Below, piece after piece: positions 24,962-35,377 of a stretch of 64,000 nucleotides of DNA. The notes under the pieces are model-generated. The model did no database searches. It saw only the letters and a program-made list of their open reading frames with translations, and was not told the origin of the DNA. Each line of letters begins with the position of its first letter. Within the stretch, counting starts at the first letter, position 1. Position numbers and translations under genes: made by a program. Origin of the DNA: an uncultured Reyranella sp. (lineage in GTDB: Bacteria > Pseudomonadota > Alphaproteobacteria > Reyranellales > Reyranellaceae); contig NZ_CAMFKM010000003.1 of assembly GCF_945957355.1 (NCBI RefSeq), positions 372,001 to 436,000 of the forward strand, in the 5' to 3' direction.

Positions 24962-26035
24962 ATGAGCACCGACAAGGCCCTCCACTGGCGCGATCTTCCG
25001 GCGCCGGTCCTGTCCCTGCTGCGGCAGGGTACCGTCATCCCCGCGCATCCGCTGGCGCTCGACACCGACCGAATCTTCGACAAGCAGTCGCAGCGCGCGC
25101 TCAGCCGCTACTACCTCGACGCCGGTTCCGGCGGGCTGGCCGTAGGGGTGCATTCCACCCAGTTCGCCATTCGCGAAGTCGGGCTCTATCGTCCCGTGCT
25201 CGAGCTTGCCATCGGGACGGCGCGCGACTGGACCGACCGGCCGCTGGTCATGATCGCGGGCGCGGTCGGCAGGACGGCGCAGGCGGTCGAGGAAGCGCGC
25301 ACGGCGCGGTCGCTCGGCTATCATGCAGTGTTGCTGTCGCTGGCGGCGCTGAAGGGCGCGAGCGAGGACGAGCTGATCGAGCATTGCGCGGCGGTCGCGA
25401 AGGAGATGCCGCTAATCGGCTTCTATCTGCAGACCGCCGTGGGAGGCATCAAGCTGTCGCGCGAATTCTGGACGCGCTTCGCGGCGATCGACAATGTCGT
25501 GGCCATCAAGGTGGCGCCGTTCAACCGCTATCGCACGCTCGACGTCTGCTTCGGTATCGCCGCCGCCCATGCCGAGGATCGCATCACGCTCTATACCGGC
25601 AACGACGACCATATCGTGGCCGACCTTGTGACGCCGATGGTCGTTCGCACCGGCAACCGCGAGGTGACGCTGCGGTTCCAGGGCGGACTCCTCGGTCACT
25701 GGAGCGTCTGGACACGCGGCGCGGTGAAGATGCTCGAAAGGCTGAAGCTCTCGGTCTCGAACGGTGCCATCGCGCCCGAGGTGCTGGCGCTCGATTCCTT
25801 CGTTACGGATTGCAACAGCGTGGTTTTCGACGTCGACCACGATTTCGCGGGCTGCATTCCGGGGTGCCACGAGATCCTGCGGCGGCAGGGGCTTCTGCAA
25901 TCGATCGAATGCCTGGACCCTCACGAAAAGCTGAGCCCCGGCCAGAGCGAGGGAATCGACCGGCTCTACGCGACCTACCCCGAGCTGCACGACGATGCCT
26001 TCGTGGCGGCGAACCTCGAGCGCTGGCGGAACTGA
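24962..26035 (+). CDS. Dihydrodipicolinate synthase/N-acetylneuraminate lyase family protein
   Basis: A 357-residue class I aldolase-type TIM barrel. The Schiff-base lysine is Lys183 in NVVAIKVAPF, and the conserved tyrosine is Tyr155 in LIGFYLQTA, where true DHDPS has YNxP. The N-terminal substrate-carboxylate motif is modified to GGLAVGVHSTQF. Longer than DapA (about 290), with a C-terminal addition. It is more likely a 2-keto-acid aldolase or dehydratase of the catabolic cluster than a lysine-biosynthetic enzyme. Starts 10 bases after the GNAT gene. Confidence 0.85.
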   Translation: MSTDKALHWRDLPAPVLSLLRQGTVIPAHPLALDTDRIFDKQSQRALSRYYLDAGSGGLAVGVHSTQFAIREVGLYRPVLELAIGTARDWTDRPLVMIAGAVGRTAQAVEEARTARSLGYHAVLLSLAALKGASEDELIEHCAAVAKEMPLIGFYLQTAVGGIKLSREFWTRFAAIDNVVAIKVAPFNRYRTLDVCFGIAAAHAEDRITLYTGNDDHIVADLVTPMVVRTGNREVTLRFQGGLLGHWSVWTRGAVKMLERLKLSVSNGAIAPEVLALDSFVTDCNSVVFDVDHDFAGCIPGCHEILRRQGLLQSIECLDPHEKLSPGQSEGIDRLYATYPELHDDAFVAANLERWRN

Positions 26036-26039
26036 GCCG

Positions 26040-27458
26040 TTGGACGATCTGTTCGCTTCCCATGACGCACTGGCCGTCGCGGAGCTGGTCCGCAGCCGGC
26101 AGATCGGCGCTCGGGAACTGCTCGACGTCACTCTCGCGCGGCTGCGCAAAGCCAACGGCCATCTGAACGCGATCACGGATTTCTACGAGGGCAACCTGCT
26201 CGAACGGTCCGTCTCGGCGGCGGGCGAGGGGCCGTTCCGCGGCATTCCCTTCGTCGTGAAGCAGCTGATGGCCGATTGCGCCGGTACGCCGACCACGGTC
26301 GGCTCGCGCTTCTTTGCCAGGGAACCGGTGGCGGCAAATGACAGTGCTGCGGTAGCCCGCATGCGCCGCGCCGGCCTGGTGATTGTCGGCCGCAGCAACA
26401 CCAGCGAGTTCGGCCTGGCGCCGACGACCGAGCCCGCCTTTGGCGGCGCGACGGTCAATCCGTGGCGTGCTGACCTGTCGCCGGGCGGCTCGTCCGGCGG
26501 TTCGGCTGCGGTGGTGGCGGCCCGGCTGCTGCCGATGGCGCATGCGACCGACGGCGGCGGCTCGATCCGCATTCCGGCCTCCCTGTGCGGGCTGTTCGGC
26601 CTGAAGCCCTCGCGCGGCCGCATCAGCCTCGCGCCGATCGGAGAGACCCTCGCCGGGGCTGGGGCACAGCTCAGCGTCTCGATCTCCGTGCGCGACAGCG
26701 CGGCACTGCTCGACGTACTGGCGGGCGGCGAACCCGGAGATCCCTATCGCGCGCCCGAGGCCGAAGGGTCGTTCCTCGACGCGACCAAGCGTACCCCGGG
26801 CAAGCTTCGCGTCGCCTTCGTCCGCAAGCCCGTCGGCTGGGAGTCGATGGACCCGGCGCTGGTCGCGGCCGTCGAGCGTACGGCGAAGCGGCTGGAAGCG
26901 CTCGGTCATCACGTCGAGGAGGCGACGCCGGATTATGATCCCGTGGCGACCGGCATGGCCTTCGGCACGGTGATGTGCGCCAACACCTTCACCAACATCC
27001 AGGTCCGCGCCAACGGCCGCGTGCCCGGGCCCGGCGATCTGGAACCGGTGACGCGGCTCTACGCGGAGCAGGGCGGCAAGGTGAGCGCCCACGACTATAT
27101 CCGCGCCGTCCAGACTTTCCATCGCACGGGACGGCAGCTCGGCGCCTTCTTCGAGAGGTTCGACATCCTCCTCTCGCCGACCATCGCGCGGCCGTCGTTG
27201 CCGCTGGGCACCGTGCGCATGGATGGCAGCCTTGAGCAGTACGAGGGGGGGCTCGCGCCGATGGTGGCCTTCACCTCTGTCTGCAATGCCGCAGGCGTGC
27301 CGGCCATGTCGGTGCCGCTGGAATGGACGGACGACGGTCTGCCCATCGGCATGCACTTCGTCGCCCGCTACGGCGCAGAGGCCACGCTGTTGTCACTGGC
27401 TGCGCAGCTCGAACAGGCGCATCCGTGGCGCGATCGGCGGCCTCCCGGAGTGAACTGA
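26040..27458 (+). CDS. Amidase (amidase-signature family)
   Basis: A 472-residue amidase-signature hydrolase. The catalytic Lys74 is in GIPFVVKQLMAD, the cis-Ser is within PGGSSGGSAA (about residue 152), and the nucleophile Ser175 is in DGGGSIRIPAS. The TTG at 26040 is taken as start because it lies 4 bases after the previous stop. The only upstream ATG (25995) is inside the aldolase gene, so the start is moderately uncertain. It would release ammonia or an amine from a carboxamide. Its place in this operon suggests an amide-containing substrate. Confidence 0.88.
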   Translation: MDDLFASHDALAVAELVRSRQIGARELLDVTLARLRKANGHLNAITDFYEGNLLERSVSAAGEGPFRGIPFVVKQLMADCAGTPTTVGSRFFAREPVAANDSAAVARMRRAGLVIVGRSNTSEFGLAPTTEPAFGGATVNPWRADLSPGGSSGGSAAVVAARLLPMAHATDGGGSIRIPASLCGLFGLKPSRGRISLAPIGETLAGAGAQLSVSISVRDSAALLDVLAGGEPGDPYRAPEAEGSFLDATKRTPGKLRVAFVRKPVGWESMDPALVAAVERTAKRLEALGHHVEEATPDYDPVATGMAFGTVMCANTFTNIQVRANGRVPGPGDLEPVTRLYAEQGGKVSAHDYIRAVQTFHRTGRQLGAFFERFDILLSPTIARPSLPLGTVRMDGSLEQYEGGLAPMVAFTSVCNAAGVPAMSVPLEWTDDGLPIGMHFVARYGAEATLLSLAAQLEQAHPWRDRRPPGVN

Positions 27459-27915: not shown

Positions 27916-28887
27916 TCAGAGCCTGCGCATAACGATCTGCGAGCCGCCGCCCCAGATCGGGAGATAGGCCATCTTGTAGCCGGCGCCGCCGGTCACGATC
28001 GGATGGATCGCCTCGGAAGAGGAGGCGACGTCCTTGCCCTCATCGAACAGATACTGCTGGACCCGCTTGATGTCCCAGCCCTCGTGGCGGGCGATTTTCT
28101 CGGCGAGTTCGAGCGGCAGCAGAAGCACCTGTTCGCCTCGCGCGCTCTTGCGGCTCTGGCCCGACATCACGATCTCGGCACGCATGCCGGCGACGACCGG
28201 GTCGAGGATCGCTTGCGGTGTCGCGCCCTCGCCGTCGCCGGGCAGCACCTCGGCCGTGCCAGAAATGCCCATCACCGTGAGGGCGCTCTCGTTCTTCGCA
28301 AGCCCGTGGCGTTCCGTGAATGTCGGGAAGGGACCTTCACTCCTCTCGGCGAAGCACAGGGTGAACTTGGCAGGCTGGCCCATTGTCGCCATGTCGCCCG
28401 TGTCAGAGCGCGCACCGCCGATGTTGCGCAGGCAGAGCTGGAGGGCGCGGCCGATGCAGGCATTGGTGCGGTTGCCGGGACCGATGGTGTTCGTCAGGGC
28501 GTTGACGCCGAGCTGCTGCACGATCGGGCCGTGGAGGCAGAGCGCGACCGCGGCGCTGCCGGTGGTCGTGGCGATGCCGAGGAGATTGAAGTCGGGTTCG
28601 AGCACCGCCTGCGCCGCCGCCAGAACCACCGGCACCTCGGCCGGTACGCAGCCCGCGATCACGCATTGATAGGCTACGCTCTCGGGGGTGATGTCGCCGA
28701 ACATCGGCGGCATCATGCCTTGCGACTCCGAGCGGCCGCCGATGCCGGCGACCATCGCTTCCAGGCGCCGCCGGGTCGGCGGCACCAGGGGGAGGCCATC
28801 CGAGAGTTCGGCCTCCGTCAGGATCTGTTGTGCGCTCTCCCAAGCCGTCTGCTCGTCGACGACCGGCCAGCCGCACCACTCGTTCAT
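27916..28887 (-). CDS. Uncharacterised protein B of the selenoprotein operon (cysteine-poor paralog)
   Basis: A 323-residue soluble protein of unknown function, last in the minus-strand operon and overlapping the previous gene by ATGA. It is a clear paralog of the 345-residue protein before it. Both share GLPL(V)PPT near residue 35, an AGC..E.PVV segment, and NACIGRAL.L.L.N.GGA...GDM...G.PAKFTLCF (residues 142-179). Of the paralog's cysteines at 81, 113, 131, 135 and 179, only the equivalents Cys80 and Cys178 remain. The other positions are Ser111, Ala130 and Thr134 here. It may therefore be a non-catalytic partner in a heteromer. No signal peptide. Confidence 0.8.
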   Translation of the reverse strand: MNEWCGWPVVDEQTAWESAQQILTEAELSDGLPLVPPTRRRLEAMVAGIGGRSESQGMMPPMFGDITPESVAYQCVIAGCVPAEVPVVLAAAQAVLEPDFNLLGIATTTGSAAVALCLHGPIVQQLGVNALTNTIGPGNRTNACIGRALQLCLRNIGGARSDTGDMATMGQPAKFTLCFAERSEGPFPTFTERHGLAKNESALTVMGISGTAEVLPGDGEGATPQAILDPVVAGMRAEIVMSGQSRKSARGEQVLLLPLELAEKIARHEGWDIKRVQQYLFDEGKDVASSSEAIHPIVTGGAGYKMAYLPIWGGGSQIVMRRL

Positions 28888-29921
28888 CGGGCGATGCGCG
28901 TGCAGGCGACGGTGGTGCCGCCGAATGACGGTATGAAGGCCGAATGCTTGCCTGGACCGCCCGCCACAGTGATGTGGATGTCGTTCGGATCACGGCCGAT
29001 CGCCAGCCAGTCCCCGTCGGGCTTGTGGCCGGTGCTCTCGTAGGTGGCGAGGTTCTCGCGGGAGATGCGCGACAGGTGGATGCGCGAGCGCTTCCAGAGT
29101 TCCTCCCGGATGCTCTCGATCGTGAAGCCATCACGCTTCAGGGTCGCCGCATGTTCGGGGCCGATGATGAGGAACATCGGGCCCTTGCCGTACACGGTGT
29201 TGGCACCCGGATTGGACATGCCGCCGGCGAAGGTGGTGAGCAGGCCGTCGCCCGTGGTCGAACCGTGATCGTTGAGATTATGCGGACCTTCGCCCGACAT
29301 CACCGTAACGACCGAGTCGGTGGGCGCGAAGCCGCGCTGCACGTGATAGGGCGTCCAGGGATTCTCCTCCTCGTTCTCGCCGAAGCAGAAGGTGAACTTG
29401 GCGGGATTGCCCTGGGTCGAGCGGTCCATCTCACCGGGCTTGGCGCCGGCTACGTTCAGCAACATCAGGCCGAGCGCGCGGCCGATCGTGGCATTGGCCT
29501 GGCGGCCCTGGCCGAAGCAGTTGGTGCCGCAGTTGATGTTGAGTTCGTGGCGGATCGGGCCGCTCACCATGACCATCGGGGCGCAGGAGTGAGTGGTCGC
29601 AAGCGTGCCGTGCAGATTGTAGTCCGGATCGAGCACGCCGCGCAGGGCGGCGGTCACGACGGGGAAGTATTCGGGCTTGCACCCGGCCATGACGGCGTTC
29701 GCGGCAAGCGCCTGCAGCGTCGGCACGATCTGGCGCGGCGGGACGGGCGGGTAGGGGCGATTGTCGCCCCGGACCGTCTCGACGAACTTCGCCACTTTGG
29801 CCTCGGTGGGCACGAAGAGCGGCATGCCGTCGCTCCAGCCCTGTTCGTTGGCGTACTCGTTGAAGGCCTCGACATCCATGTCGCCGATGTCGATCACTTC
29901 CTGGTCGGCGATGTCCTTCAT
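28884..29921 (-). CDS. Uncharacterised protein A of the selenoprotein operon (cysteine-rich paralog)
   Basis: A 345-residue soluble protein of unknown function. Its ATG overlaps the stop of the selenoprotein gene (ATGA), and its own stop overlaps the next start. Conserved features are GWSDGMPLFVPT (residues 28-39), AGCKPEYFPVV (Cys81), TTHSCAP (Cys113), a C-GTN-C pair (Cys131, Cys135) and NPAKFTFCFGE (Cys179). Five cysteines in blocks shared with its paralog suggest redox or metal chemistry. The translational coupling predicts 1:1 production with, and probably physical association to, the UGSC selenoprotein. Not recognisable as any named enzyme. Confidence 0.82.
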   Translation of the reverse strand: MKDIADQEVIDIGDMDVEAFNEYANEQGWSDGMPLFVPTEAKVAKFVETVRGDNRPYPPVPPRQIVPTLQALAANAVMAGCKPEYFPVVTAALRGVLDPDYNLHGTLATTHSCAPMVMVSGPIRHELNINCGTNCFGQGRQANATIGRALGLMLLNVAGAKPGEMDRSTQGNPAKFTFCFGENEEENPWTPYHVQRGFAPTDSVVTVMSGEGPHNLNDHGSTTGDGLLTTFAGGMSNPGANTVYGKGPMFLIIGPEHAATLKRDGFTIESIREELWKRSRIHLSRISRENLATYESTGHKPDGDWLAIGRDPNDIHITVAGGPGKHSAFIPSFGGTTVACTRIAR

Positions 29922-30436
29922 TTGCCCGTGGCCTCGGTCAATCCCTTGGTCGCTGCTTCGATACGTTCCCGCAGTTCTTCGGCATTGAGGCCGCCGACGG
30001 GATGCTTGACCACGATCAGGCGCGGTTCGACCTTGCGGGCCTTCGCCTGGGCGAGGACCAGCGGCTTGAATGTCTCAGTGGCGATCACGTAGGCGGTGAT
30101 GCCGAGCTTCTCGAGTTCGAGGCTGTCGTGGAAACTCCACGATGAACAGCTTCCTCAATCCCCTAAGGCGAGGAGTGCCGCCTTGTAGTTCTTGGCGACC
30201 TTCTCGATCAGTTCCTTCGGCGCCGGCTGGCTGGCGCTGTTCTTGGCGTGGAAATGGATGTTGTCGACCGGACGATGGGCGCCCAGCATGGCGCGTACGC
30301 CTTCCAGCAACTCACGAGCGTTCGGCTTGGAATTGGAGATCAGCGCAATGGCGTCCGTCGCCCAGTTGACCGGCTGCAACGTCACCTTGGCGGGGCCGGC
30401 GGCGGCCATTCCGAAGCTTGGATTGAAGATACGCAT
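29918..30436 (-). CDS. UGSC-motif selenoprotein (in-frame TGA read as selenocysteine)
   Basis: The frame starts at ATG 30436 with a GGAGG site upstream and would conventionally stop at the TGA at 30155-30157. Beyond it the same frame stays open for 78 codons and ends with TGA at 29918-29920, coupled to the next ATG. Full product: 172 residues with Sec94. The TGA falls exactly in the motif GD-U-GSC, so Sec94 and Cys97 form a U-x-x-C redox pair. The N-terminal part (ALISNSKPNARELLEGV; SASQPAPKELI) and C-terminal part (SSWSFHDSLELEKLGITAYVIATETF) together match the UGSC family of bacterial (seleno)proteins as I know it. A stable hairpin immediately follows the TGA. It is preceded by a thioredoxin-reductase-like gene, the likely reductant. 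Conventional gene callers would truncate it to 93 residues. Confidence 0.88.
30119..30157 (-). promoter_or_regulatory. Bacterial SECIS-like hairpin following the Sec TGA
   Basis: On the minus strand, counting from the base after TGA, positions 13-19 (TCGTGGA) pair perfectly with 23-29 (TCCACGA) around the loop GTT at 20-22. Below a 5'-side bulge (TTCA, 9-12), GCTG (5-8) pairs with CAGC (30-33). GAG spanning the TGA can pair with CTC (34-36). The apical loop begins with G about 20 bases after the TGA, and a bulged U lies in the stem, as described for bacterial SECIS elements bound by SelB. The hairpin is within the coding sequence, as expected in bacteria. Confidence 0.75.
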
Positions 30437-30453: not shown

Positions 30454-31323
30454 CTACTTGTTCAACGCCGCGATAACCGACTTGGCGGCGCGTTGGCCGT
30501 CCGCGATGGCGTTGGCCAGATATTCCTTCGAACCGGACCTTACGTCGCCGGCGGCAAACACCAGCGGCTGGGCAGTCTGGCCCGCTTCGTCAACAACGAT
30601 ATGCCCCGTGGCGTCGCGTGCAAGCGAATCCGGCAGGAATTCCGCAGCGGGAGACCGCCCCTCATAAACGAACACCGCATTGGTCGGAATTCGGTTTCGC
30701 TGGCCGCTATCTTCGACCGTGACGGCCTCGAGACCGTTGCTGCCTTCGAGACCGACGATGCGTCCCGGCATGGCCGTGACGCCTTCGGGGAGCGGGCCAT
30801 TCGGCGTGCCGAGCATGGTGATGTCGCTGGCGATGCCGACCAGGACGGCGGCCTCGTAGGGCGCCCAGCCGGTCGCGCCGGCGATGATCACGGGCTGGCC
30901 GGCATAGAGCGGCCCGTCGCAGTTCGCGCAGTGGGAAAGGCCACGTCCTTCATATTCCTCCTCGCCGGGGAGACCGAGCTTGCCCTTGCTCATGCCGGTC
31001 GCAACGACGAGGGATCGCGCCGTGTGGTGCTCGCCGTCGGCGGTCTCGATCTCGAAGGGCCCGTTGCCGGAAATCGCCGTCACTTCGCCGAAGCCGATCT
31101 CGACGCCGGCGACGACGGCGTCGTCGGTCAGGCGCGCGGCCATAGTCGTGCCGTCGAAGATCTCCTCGAAATCGTGCAACTGGCCCAGGTTGATGATTTC
31201 GCCGCCGGGCGCGAGCTTGTCGAGGCAGAGCGCCTTCAGGCCCGCGCGGGCGGCTTCGGTGGCGGCGGTCAGTCCGGCAGGACCGGCGCCAATGACGATC
31301 ACGTCGTAGGAAGGGGTGTCCAT
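30454..31323 (-). CDS. Thioredoxin-reductase-like FAD oxidoreductase
   Basis: A 289-residue flavoprotein of the low-molecular-weight thioredoxin reductase family. The FAD motif is IVIGAGPAGLTAATEAAR (residues 9-26), the redox disulfide CANC is Cys132/Cys135 (HCANCDGPLYAG), and the second FAD motif is VFAAGDVRSGS. The central pyridine-nucleotide site is unusual. Where the family has GGGDSA, this protein has IIAGATGWAPYEAA, and the HRRxxxRA arginines are not present (MLGTPNG). It may use NADH, ferredoxin or another donor. It is first in the operon, 17 bases before the UGSC selenoprotein, and divergent from livH. Confidence 0.86.
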   Translation of the reverse strand: MDTPSYDVIVIGAGPAGLTAATEAARAGLKALCLDKLAPGGEIINLGQLHDFEEIFDGTTMAARLTDDAVVAGVEIGFGEVTAISGNGPFEIETADGEHHTARSLVVATGMSKGKLGLPGEEEYEGRGLSHCANCDGPLYAGQPVIIAGATGWAPYEAAVLVGIASDITMLGTPNGPLPEGVTAMPGRIVGLEGSNGLEAVTVEDSGQRNRIPTNAVFVYEGRSPAAEFLPDSLARDATGHIVVDEAGQTAQPLVFAAGDVRSGSKEYLANAIADGQRAAKSVIAALNK

Positions 31324-31510: not shown

Positions 31511-32425
<915 letters not shown>

Positions 32426-32428
32426 CGG

Positions 32429-33850
32429 ATGGGCCCGCGTCTCCCTCTCATGCTGAAGGATGCGGGCCTTACCGCCTTCGTCGCCGCGGCCCTCGGCATC
32501 TTCATCGTGGGCTTCCGCACCGTCGACCTGGGGGGCGGCAAGGGGCTGGGCTTCGACTATCACCTCGTCGATCTCGCGGTGGCCGTGGTCGTCATCTTCA
32601 TCGGCCGGCTCGGCCTCTCGATGGCGGCCAATGGTCTGCGCTGGCCGGCCATTGCGCTGGGTGTGGCGATGGTCGCGGCCGGCGCCTCGCCCATGAAGCT
32701 GCCGTCCGGCTTCCTGCACTGGTTCGTGGCGCTGGGCGGCGTACTGCTGGTGATCCGCGCGATCTGGCCATGGGCCAATGACGCCATGGGCGCTGCGGCG
32801 CGGACCCCGTCGGGTGTGGCGCTGGGCAAGGCCGGGTCCAAATGGTTTGGCTGGCTGTTGCTGGCCGCAGCGGTGCTGATGCCGTTCACGCCGTTCGCCG
32901 ACCAGAAGACGATGGATCTCGGCGTCCTGATCCTGACCTACGTGATGCTTGGCTGGGGGCTCAACATCGTGGTCGGCCTCGCCGGCCTGCTCGACCTGGG
33001 CTACGTCGCATTCTACGCGGTCGGCGCCTACGCCTATGCGCTGCTCAGCACGCAGTATGGACTGGGCTTCTGGACTGTCTTGCCGCTCGCCGGGATGATG
33101 GCGGCGCTGTTCGGCATCATGCTGGGTTTCCCGGTCCTGCGCCTGCGCGGCGACTACCTCGCCATCGTGACCCTCGGCTTCGGCGAGATCATCCGTCTCG
33201 TGCTGCTGAACTGGTTCGACCTCACCAACGGGCCGGCCGGCATCGGCTCGATCCCGGGACCGACCCTGTTCGGCGCCGTGTTCGCCGAGACGCCGCCGCC
33301 CGGCAAGCAGACTGTCTCGGAGATGCTGGGAATCGCCTTCGACGGCAATCACCGGCTGATCTTCCTCTATTACATCATCCTCGGCCTGGCCCTGATCACC
33401 AACCTCTTCACCCAGCGCATGCGGCGCCTGCCGGTCGGTCGCGCCTGGGAGGCGTTGCGCGAGGACGAGACCGCTTGCCAGGCGCTCGGCATCAATCCGA
33501 CCAACACCAAGCTCACGGCCTTCGCCATCGGCGCCATGTTCGCGGGCTTTGCCGGTTCCTTCTTTGCCGCCAAGCAGCGCTTCATCAGCCCCGAGAGCTT
33601 CGTGTTCATCGAGTCGGCGATCATCCTGGCCATCGTCGTCCTGGGCGGCATGGGCAGCCAGATCGGCGTGGTGCTGGCGGCCGTGCTGTTGATCGGCCTG
33701 CCAGAATGGTTCCGGGACCTCGGCAATTACCGCATGCTGGCCTTCGGCCTCGCCATGGTCCTGATCATGGTGTTCAAGCCGCGCGGGCTCATTTCCCATC
33801 GCGAGCCGTCGATACGGTTGCATCCCGCCGGCTCGGGAGGCGGGGGATGA
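32429..33850 (+). CDS. livM: Branched-chain amino acid ABC transporter permease LivM, with N-terminal extension
   Basis: A 473-residue permease. The LivM core (from about residue 165) has [54 protein letters not shown] and a C-terminal [28 protein letters not shown]. The first about 150 residues form four additional hydrophobic segments, making it longer than minimal LivM proteins (about 320-360) but similar to the LivM forms with a DUF3382-like N-terminal region. It starts 4 bases after livH and its stop overlaps the livG start (ATGA). Confidence 0.94.
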
Positions 33851-34648
33851 CCTCATCGCTGATCGAGATCGAGCACCTCACCATGCGCTTCGGCGGGCTG
33901 GTCGCGATAGACGACGTCTCGTTCTCGGCGCGATCGCAGGAGATTACCGCAGTCATCGGTCCCAACGGCGCCGGCAAGACGACGGTCTTCAACTGCATCA
34001 CCGGCTTCTACAAGCCGACGATCGGCCGGCTGACCCTGCGTGGCGCTGGCGGCGAATTCCTGCTCGAACGGATGCGCGGCCACGAGATCGGTCAGAAGGC
34101 CCGGGTGGCTCGTACCTTCCAGAATATCCGTCTGTTTCCCGGCATGACCGTGCTGGAGAACCTGATGGTGGCGCAGCACAACAAGCTGATGCGCGCCTCG
34201 GGCTGGAGCCTGCTGGGTCTTGTTGGCGTGGCGAGCTTCCGGCGGGCCGAGGCGGCCGCGGTCGACCTGGCGCGGCTCTGGCTGGAGCGCATCGGTCTGG
34301 TGGCGGATGCCGACCGTCCGGCCGGCGAGCTGCCCTATGGCGCCCAGCGGCGCCTCGAGATCGCCCGGGCCATGTGCACCGAGCCGGTGCTGCTCTGCCT
34401 GGACGAGCCGGCGGCCGGTCTCAACCCGCGCGAATCGGCCGAACTCAACCAGCTGCTGGTTTCGATCAGAGACCGGGACGGGATCGGCGTGCTGCTGATC
34501 GAGCACGACATGAGCGTCGTGATGAACATTTCCGACCACATCGTCGTCCTCGACTATGGCCGCAAGATCGCCGAGGGGGATCCGCTGGCGGTGCGCGGCA
34601 ACCCGGCGGTGATTCGCGCCTATCTCGGCACCGACGAGGAGGCGATCG

Positions 34649-34656
<8 letters not shown>
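33847..34656 (+). CDS. livG: Branched-chain amino acid ABC transporter ATP-binding protein LivG
   Basis: A 269-residue ATPase. Walker A is GPNGAGKTT, the Q-loop lies in [25 protein letters not shown], the signature region is [15 protein letters not shown], Walker B is [13 protein letters not shown], and the H-loop is [15 protein letters not shown]. The PYGxQRR signature and NP after the D-loop are typical of LivG. ATG at 33847 overlaps the livM stop. Its own stop lies 8 bases inside livF. Confidence 0.95.

Positions 34657-35373
<717 letters not shown>

Positions 35374-35377
<4 letters not shown>

Follow-up and report, generated by a model that had tools for sequence, protein, structure and literature searches.

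The hairpin that follows the in-frame TGA of a UGSC-family gene in an uncultured Reyranella sp. is, judging from sequence comparisons, almost certainly a bacterial SECIS (bSECIS) element serving selenocysteine (Sec) insertion at codon 94. The window analysed here is a 64,000-nt stretch of DNA (GCF_945957355.1, contig NZ_CAMFKM010000003.1, positions 372,001-436,000 of the forward strand), and coordinates are positions within it unless another contig is named. bSECIS elements and UGSC selenoproteins were known beforehand, as documented in PMC2398784, PMC9312934 and PMC13188914, and the hairpin is a well-supported further example of such an element. The first-pass annotation had proposed that its features fit a SelB-bound SECIS. 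This proposal is borne out by agreement with all published bSECIS constraints, by the Sec machinery that the genome encodes, by membership of the gene in a known selenoprotein family, by conservation of the hairpin in Sec genes and by loss of its loop in cysteine (Cys) homologues.

The reading frame in question, on the minus strand, stays open for 93 codons (30436-30158), meets a TGA (30157-30155) and then resumes up to a second TGA (29920-29918). Reading the first TGA as Sec and the second as the stop gives a UGSC-family selenoprotein gene (29918-30436, minus strand) for a protein of 172 aa, with Sec94 in the motif D-U-G-S-C. The translation matched PF24696 over residues 3-167 with 128.1 bits, against a cut-off of 25, and the TGA falls on the U of its UGSC motif. 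The NF041046 score of 118.6 bits was 6 bits short of the cut-off of 125; further UGSC-motif proteins likewise remained under it, with 119.3 and 120.2 bits, and we therefore placed the window protein in the Pfam family and not in the NF041046 equivalog. It has the same motif, length and whole-length profile match as the UGSC family (PF24696, NF041046), which PMC2398784 presents as a major one. That family consists mostly of Sec proteins, with Cys forms in the minority. Within it the window protein represents a divergent subfamily, having W-S-F after the motif where C-S-L is found elsewhere, and it is about 23-33% identical to the other UGSC subfamilies. The genome of the window holds four UGSC genes with one in-frame TGA each, the further three lying at C2:175153-175650 (loci L143/L121), C4:31614-32120 (loci L093/L119) and C7:148490-148993 (loci L110/L120). 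When PF24696 was searched across 240 genomes of the class, every match, among the matches listed, had exactly one TGA; Cys forms in one genus came from searches made after this class-wide one.

A possibility was that the first TGA is a true stop, in a split gene or a pseudogene, or else a sequencing error, and the homologous gene is indeed labelled a truncated or split hypothetical protein in two public plasmid annotations. Yet the TGA was kept in 81 of 81 close loci, that is, the window and 80 relatives recovered by a scan of genome contigs (mostly Reyranella and other Rhodospirillales-labelled assemblies). The same TGA thus recurs in 81 independent assemblies, and divergent families have it at the same motif. 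Moreover, the downstream frame is conserved at the protein level to its end, and other homologues have Cys in place of the TGA. We consider a stop or an error at this position very improbable. The two plasmid genes, from Acidovorax sp. T1 plasmid p2-T1 (L160) and Paracoccus ferrooxidans pFER4 (L170), carry both the TGA and an intact stem-loop. Still less probable is a genome-wide reassignment of TGA, for example to tryptophan. We found no evidence supporting it, and against it the homologues have Cys and not Trp at the aligned position, the genome has a tRNA-Sec and SelB, and the same UGSC gene ends at a TGA overlapped by a start codon (ATGA). The best hairpin following this stop TGA has 4 bp, and none there is SECIS-like. 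Given the start overlap and the lack of a comparable hairpin, UGA therefore has both meanings in one gene, Sec at codon 94 and stop at its end.

We numbered the hairpin on the minus strand, taking the T of the TGA (30157) as position 1. The whole element (30122-30150) extends from 5 to 33 bases past the TGA. Its conserved core (30126-30142) is an upper stem of seven perfect pairs, positions 16-22 with 26-32 (30142-30136 with 30132-30126), closed by a GUU loop at 23-25 (30135-30133) whose G is the 20th base past the TGA. Below it lie a UUCA bulge at 12-15 (30146-30143) and a lower stem of four pairs, 8-11 with 33-36, in which the 3' arm (30122-30125) faces 30150-30147. This is the arrangement given in the first-pass annotation, down to a loop beginning with G about 20 bases past the TGA, and it withstood folding, since the minimum-energy and centroid folds of a 51-nt stretch both contained the hairpin. 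Three more optional pairs had also been suggested, for which support was partial: in some folds, 5-39 and 6-38 pair beyond a mismatch. When compared with shuffled sequences, the 51-nt fold had a z-score of -2.17, and 6 of 200 shuffles were as stable. A strict version of the hairpin (7-bp stem, 3-nt G[G/U] loop, bSECIS distance) followed only 4 of the 1534 TGAs on both strands of the window.

According to a 2026 review (PMC13188914), a bSECIS has a loop of 3-9 nt, an upper stem of 4-16 bp and 16-37 nt from the UGA to the loop; one of the first two loop bases is a G, after which G or U is usual, and the energy is at most -7.5 kcal/mol. The present hairpin has a 3-nt loop, GUU, on a 7-bp upper stem, with 19 nt between the UGA and the apical loop and an energy of -17.7 kcal/mol over 51 nt. 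It thus shares with the consensus of that source the placement right after the UGA and a loop starting with G-U, and violates no constraint. A search of Rfam at the gathering threshold assigned no family to the hairpin, the sole match in the window being a tRNA. The genome, which is 99.9% complete, encodes SelB (464 bits), SelA (565 bits) and a tRNA-Sec (71.5 bits), all on contig C17, and SelD on contig C11, each above its cut-off; ARAGORN found the tRNA-Sec as well. Going by what is established about Sec insertion in bacteria, we infer that SelB, loaded with GTP and Sec-tRNA(Sec), would bind the hairpin at its upper stem and GU apical loop, about 20 nt past the UGA. Sec would then be delivered as the UGA enters the ribosomal A site, giving Sec at codon 94 and the full 172-aa protein.

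Codon usage in the 81 close loci pointed to constraint on the nucleotides of the hairpin. Codons +5 (TCG), +6 (TGG), +7 (AGT), +8 (TTC) and +10 (GAC) showed no synonymous variation in any of the 81 loci, and codon +9 was CAC in 77 and CAT in 4. At least five different codons encode the Ser at +2, and variation is also freer outside the hairpin. The AGT at +7, which supplies the GU of the loop, is rare: in a small sample of nine ORFs of the window it accounts for about 2% of Ser codons. Compared with bSECIS elements in general, the UGSC stem-loop sequence is almost frozen inside its own family. Its stem sequence differs from that of the E. coli fdhF element. We also noticed that codon +4 (30143-30145), which lies in the bulge, is the Ser codon TCA in 76 of the 81 loci, TCA likewise being about 2% of Ser codons; it is perhaps conserved to block extension of the stem.

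As the first-pass annotation had recognized, structure and coding constraints overlap here, the stretch encoding conserved active-site residues. The hairpin might thus be a by-product of coding, the motif that follows Sec, GSCSSWSFHD, happening to fold into an RNA structure that has no role. We recoded the window peptide synonymously 20,000 times, sampling codons by their local usage. The seven upper pairs were retained in 13% of them, and the folding energy of the natural sequence was unremarkable (z-score -0.87), 20% of the recodings being at least as stable. We therefore dropped folding energy as proof of the element, and the case rests on conservation. Seven plus four pairs were retained in 1.0% of recodings and the seven pairs with the GU loop in only 0.8%, yet the stem with this loop, including its rare Ser codon, is present in 81 of 81 relatives. 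Therefore, the peptide favours a hairpin, but coding alone does not explain a stem-loop kept in 81 genomes. Two further observations run against a by-product of coding: 14 Cys homologues with similar peptides lack the loop sequence, and pair 21-27 stays complementary despite differing amino-acid pairs. We regard this explanation as highly unlikely, and the hairpin as almost certainly a bSECIS.

We assessed pairing in more distant genes on 48 diverse Sec sequences, in which 94.3% of the upper stem was paired, as against 64.6% of lower-stem cells, and the outer two pairs of the lower stem were open in 34 and 26 of the 48. The consensus fold retained five of the seven upper pairs, 17-31 to 21-27. 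Thus, of the hairpin first described, the upper stem core and loop proved general, but the lower stem and the UUCA bulge are specific mainly to the Reyranella lineage. Pair 21-27, both members of which are third-codon positions, was C-G in 33 sequences and G-C in 15, with no mismatch, and it was complementary whether W was combined with F, V or I, or C with L, M or T. Pair 18-30, likewise third with third, was G-U, G-C or A-U with one exception. The covariation score was 0.214 versus 0.145 for shuffled data; none of 500 shuffles scored as high, and the true register topped every slid one, although relatedness alone can yield such an excess. On the tree, we counted two changes on each side of pair 21-27 and a single independent pair on supported branches. 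The compensatory change that the first-pass annotation had named as a check is therefore present, 15 of the 48 sequences having both members of pair 21-27 switched. The covariation is real, with few independent compensatory events behind it.

The Cys homologues offered a control. The TGA aligned with Cys in 14 distinct sequences from Alphaproteobacteria, Comamonadaceae, Actinomycetes and haloarchaea. Of the 73 distinct Sec sequences, 71 had the loop GU, as against 0 of the 14 Cys sequences, and at least six of the seven upper pairs were kept in 68 of 73 versus 6 of 14. The two Sec exceptions, L107 and L136, belong to a distant subfamily of fused proteins, whose hairpin is of another kind and likewise has GU in its loop. 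Two Cys clades nested among Sec genes had lost the loop, one being L168 beside L088-L090 and the other L140 and L157-L159 beside L143. Tree-based independent contrasts between Sec and Cys numbered four, too few for significance. Incidentally, in one Cys-form relative, L139, a TGA lies in frame further along (SEKF*P), which may mark a pseudogene or a sequencing error.

The gene lies in a tight minus-strand cluster with ATGA overlaps. Seventeen nt upstream of UGSC is a thioredoxin-reductase-like flavoprotein with a CANC motif (30454-31323, minus strand; PF07992, 102 bits). Downstream, partner A (28884-29921, minus strand; 345 aa), of an unnamed family, has a start that overlaps the UGSC stop, and partner B (27916-28887, minus strand; 323 aa), a paralogue of A with 31% identity, has a start that overlaps the stop of A. 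Of the 80 close loci, 79 have A, 71 have B and 58 have the reductase, the last count being of reductases that adjoin UGSC with more than 50% identity. A-like proteins also adjoin most of the divergent UGSC genes, and A is fused to UGSC in three loci (L107, L136, L169); this is probably the UGSC/Unknown_1 fusion of PMC2398784. A and B share invariant DG-P and C-E motifs. Neither had a relative by sequence in Pfam, NCBIfam or the PDB, and the predicted model of A (pLDDT 87.6) gave no clear fold match (best Foldseek E 0.005, probability 0.44; best VIA Z 5.6). The flanks (24962-27458 and 31511-35377) hold a dihydrodipicolinate-synthase-like protein, an amidase and what looks by eye like a transporter cluster of the branched-chain amino-acid ABC type, which are possible hints at the substrate.

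The predicted model of the UGSC protein (pLDDT 91) is a five-strand alpha/beta structure, Rossmann or flavodoxin-like, in which residue 94 opens a helix that comes after a strand. PMC2398784 suggested a thioredoxin-like fold. Thioredoxin was absent among the best structural matches of the model, an absence that does not exclude such a fold; the protein is predicted to be Rossmann-like and not obviously thioredoxin-like. The matches of the model include many unrelated alpha/beta proteins (WrbA, FtsZ, receiver domains), so that only the general fold can be named, and a sequence search of the PDB returned no relative. The GrdB profile was weakly matched by 14 of 37 UGSC proteins (up to 21.1 bits, E down to 1.2e-4), the alignments covering its C-terminal, Sec-bearing part (about 330-420 of 431); no such match was reported for the window protein itself. 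We rejected membership in GrdB/PrdB, the best score being 21.1 bits against a TIGR01917 cut-off of 602, for the C-terminal part only. In a class-wide search for Sec-containing GrdB/PrdB, PF07355 had matches, none with a C/U-G-[TS]-C-x-x-C motif. With the selenoprotein B of glycine, sarcosine and D-proline reductases (GrdB, GrdF, PrdB), UGSC has in common a thioredoxin-reductase-like neighbour. It differs in standing alone as a domain of some 170 aa and in having partners, A and B, without a match to any reductase subunit. The profile matches suggest that UGSC may be a GrdB-like selenol reductase, as distinct from a member of GrdB. The selenol of the UGSC motif would be the redox centre, with the neighbouring thioredoxin-reductase-like protein, A and B all serving it.

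A broader reading, which we put forward tentatively and hold to be possible but rather less than probable, is that UGSC is the selenol subunit of an undescribed type of reductase, related in minimal form to the Sec-bearing end of GrdB/PrdB. Mainly in Alphaproteobacteria, it would cleave some substrate reductively, acting with the A/B family and often with a thioredoxin-reductase-like flavoprotein. SECIS and active site would overlap so tightly that pairing limits the residues that follow (W with F/V/I, C with L/M/T). We did not find this tie between RNA pairing and active-site codons, or the partner system, described in the available parts of the literature on the family.

The recurring neighbourhood of UGSC points to a selenoenzyme system, whose reaction is not assigned in the accessible portions of published work on it. 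Settling how the interrupted frame is read means that the gene can be annotated correctly, where some public records call it a truncated or split hypothetical protein. Finally, the UGSC family is an unusually clean natural experiment, in which the RNA signal stays with Sec and goes when Cys replaces Sec.
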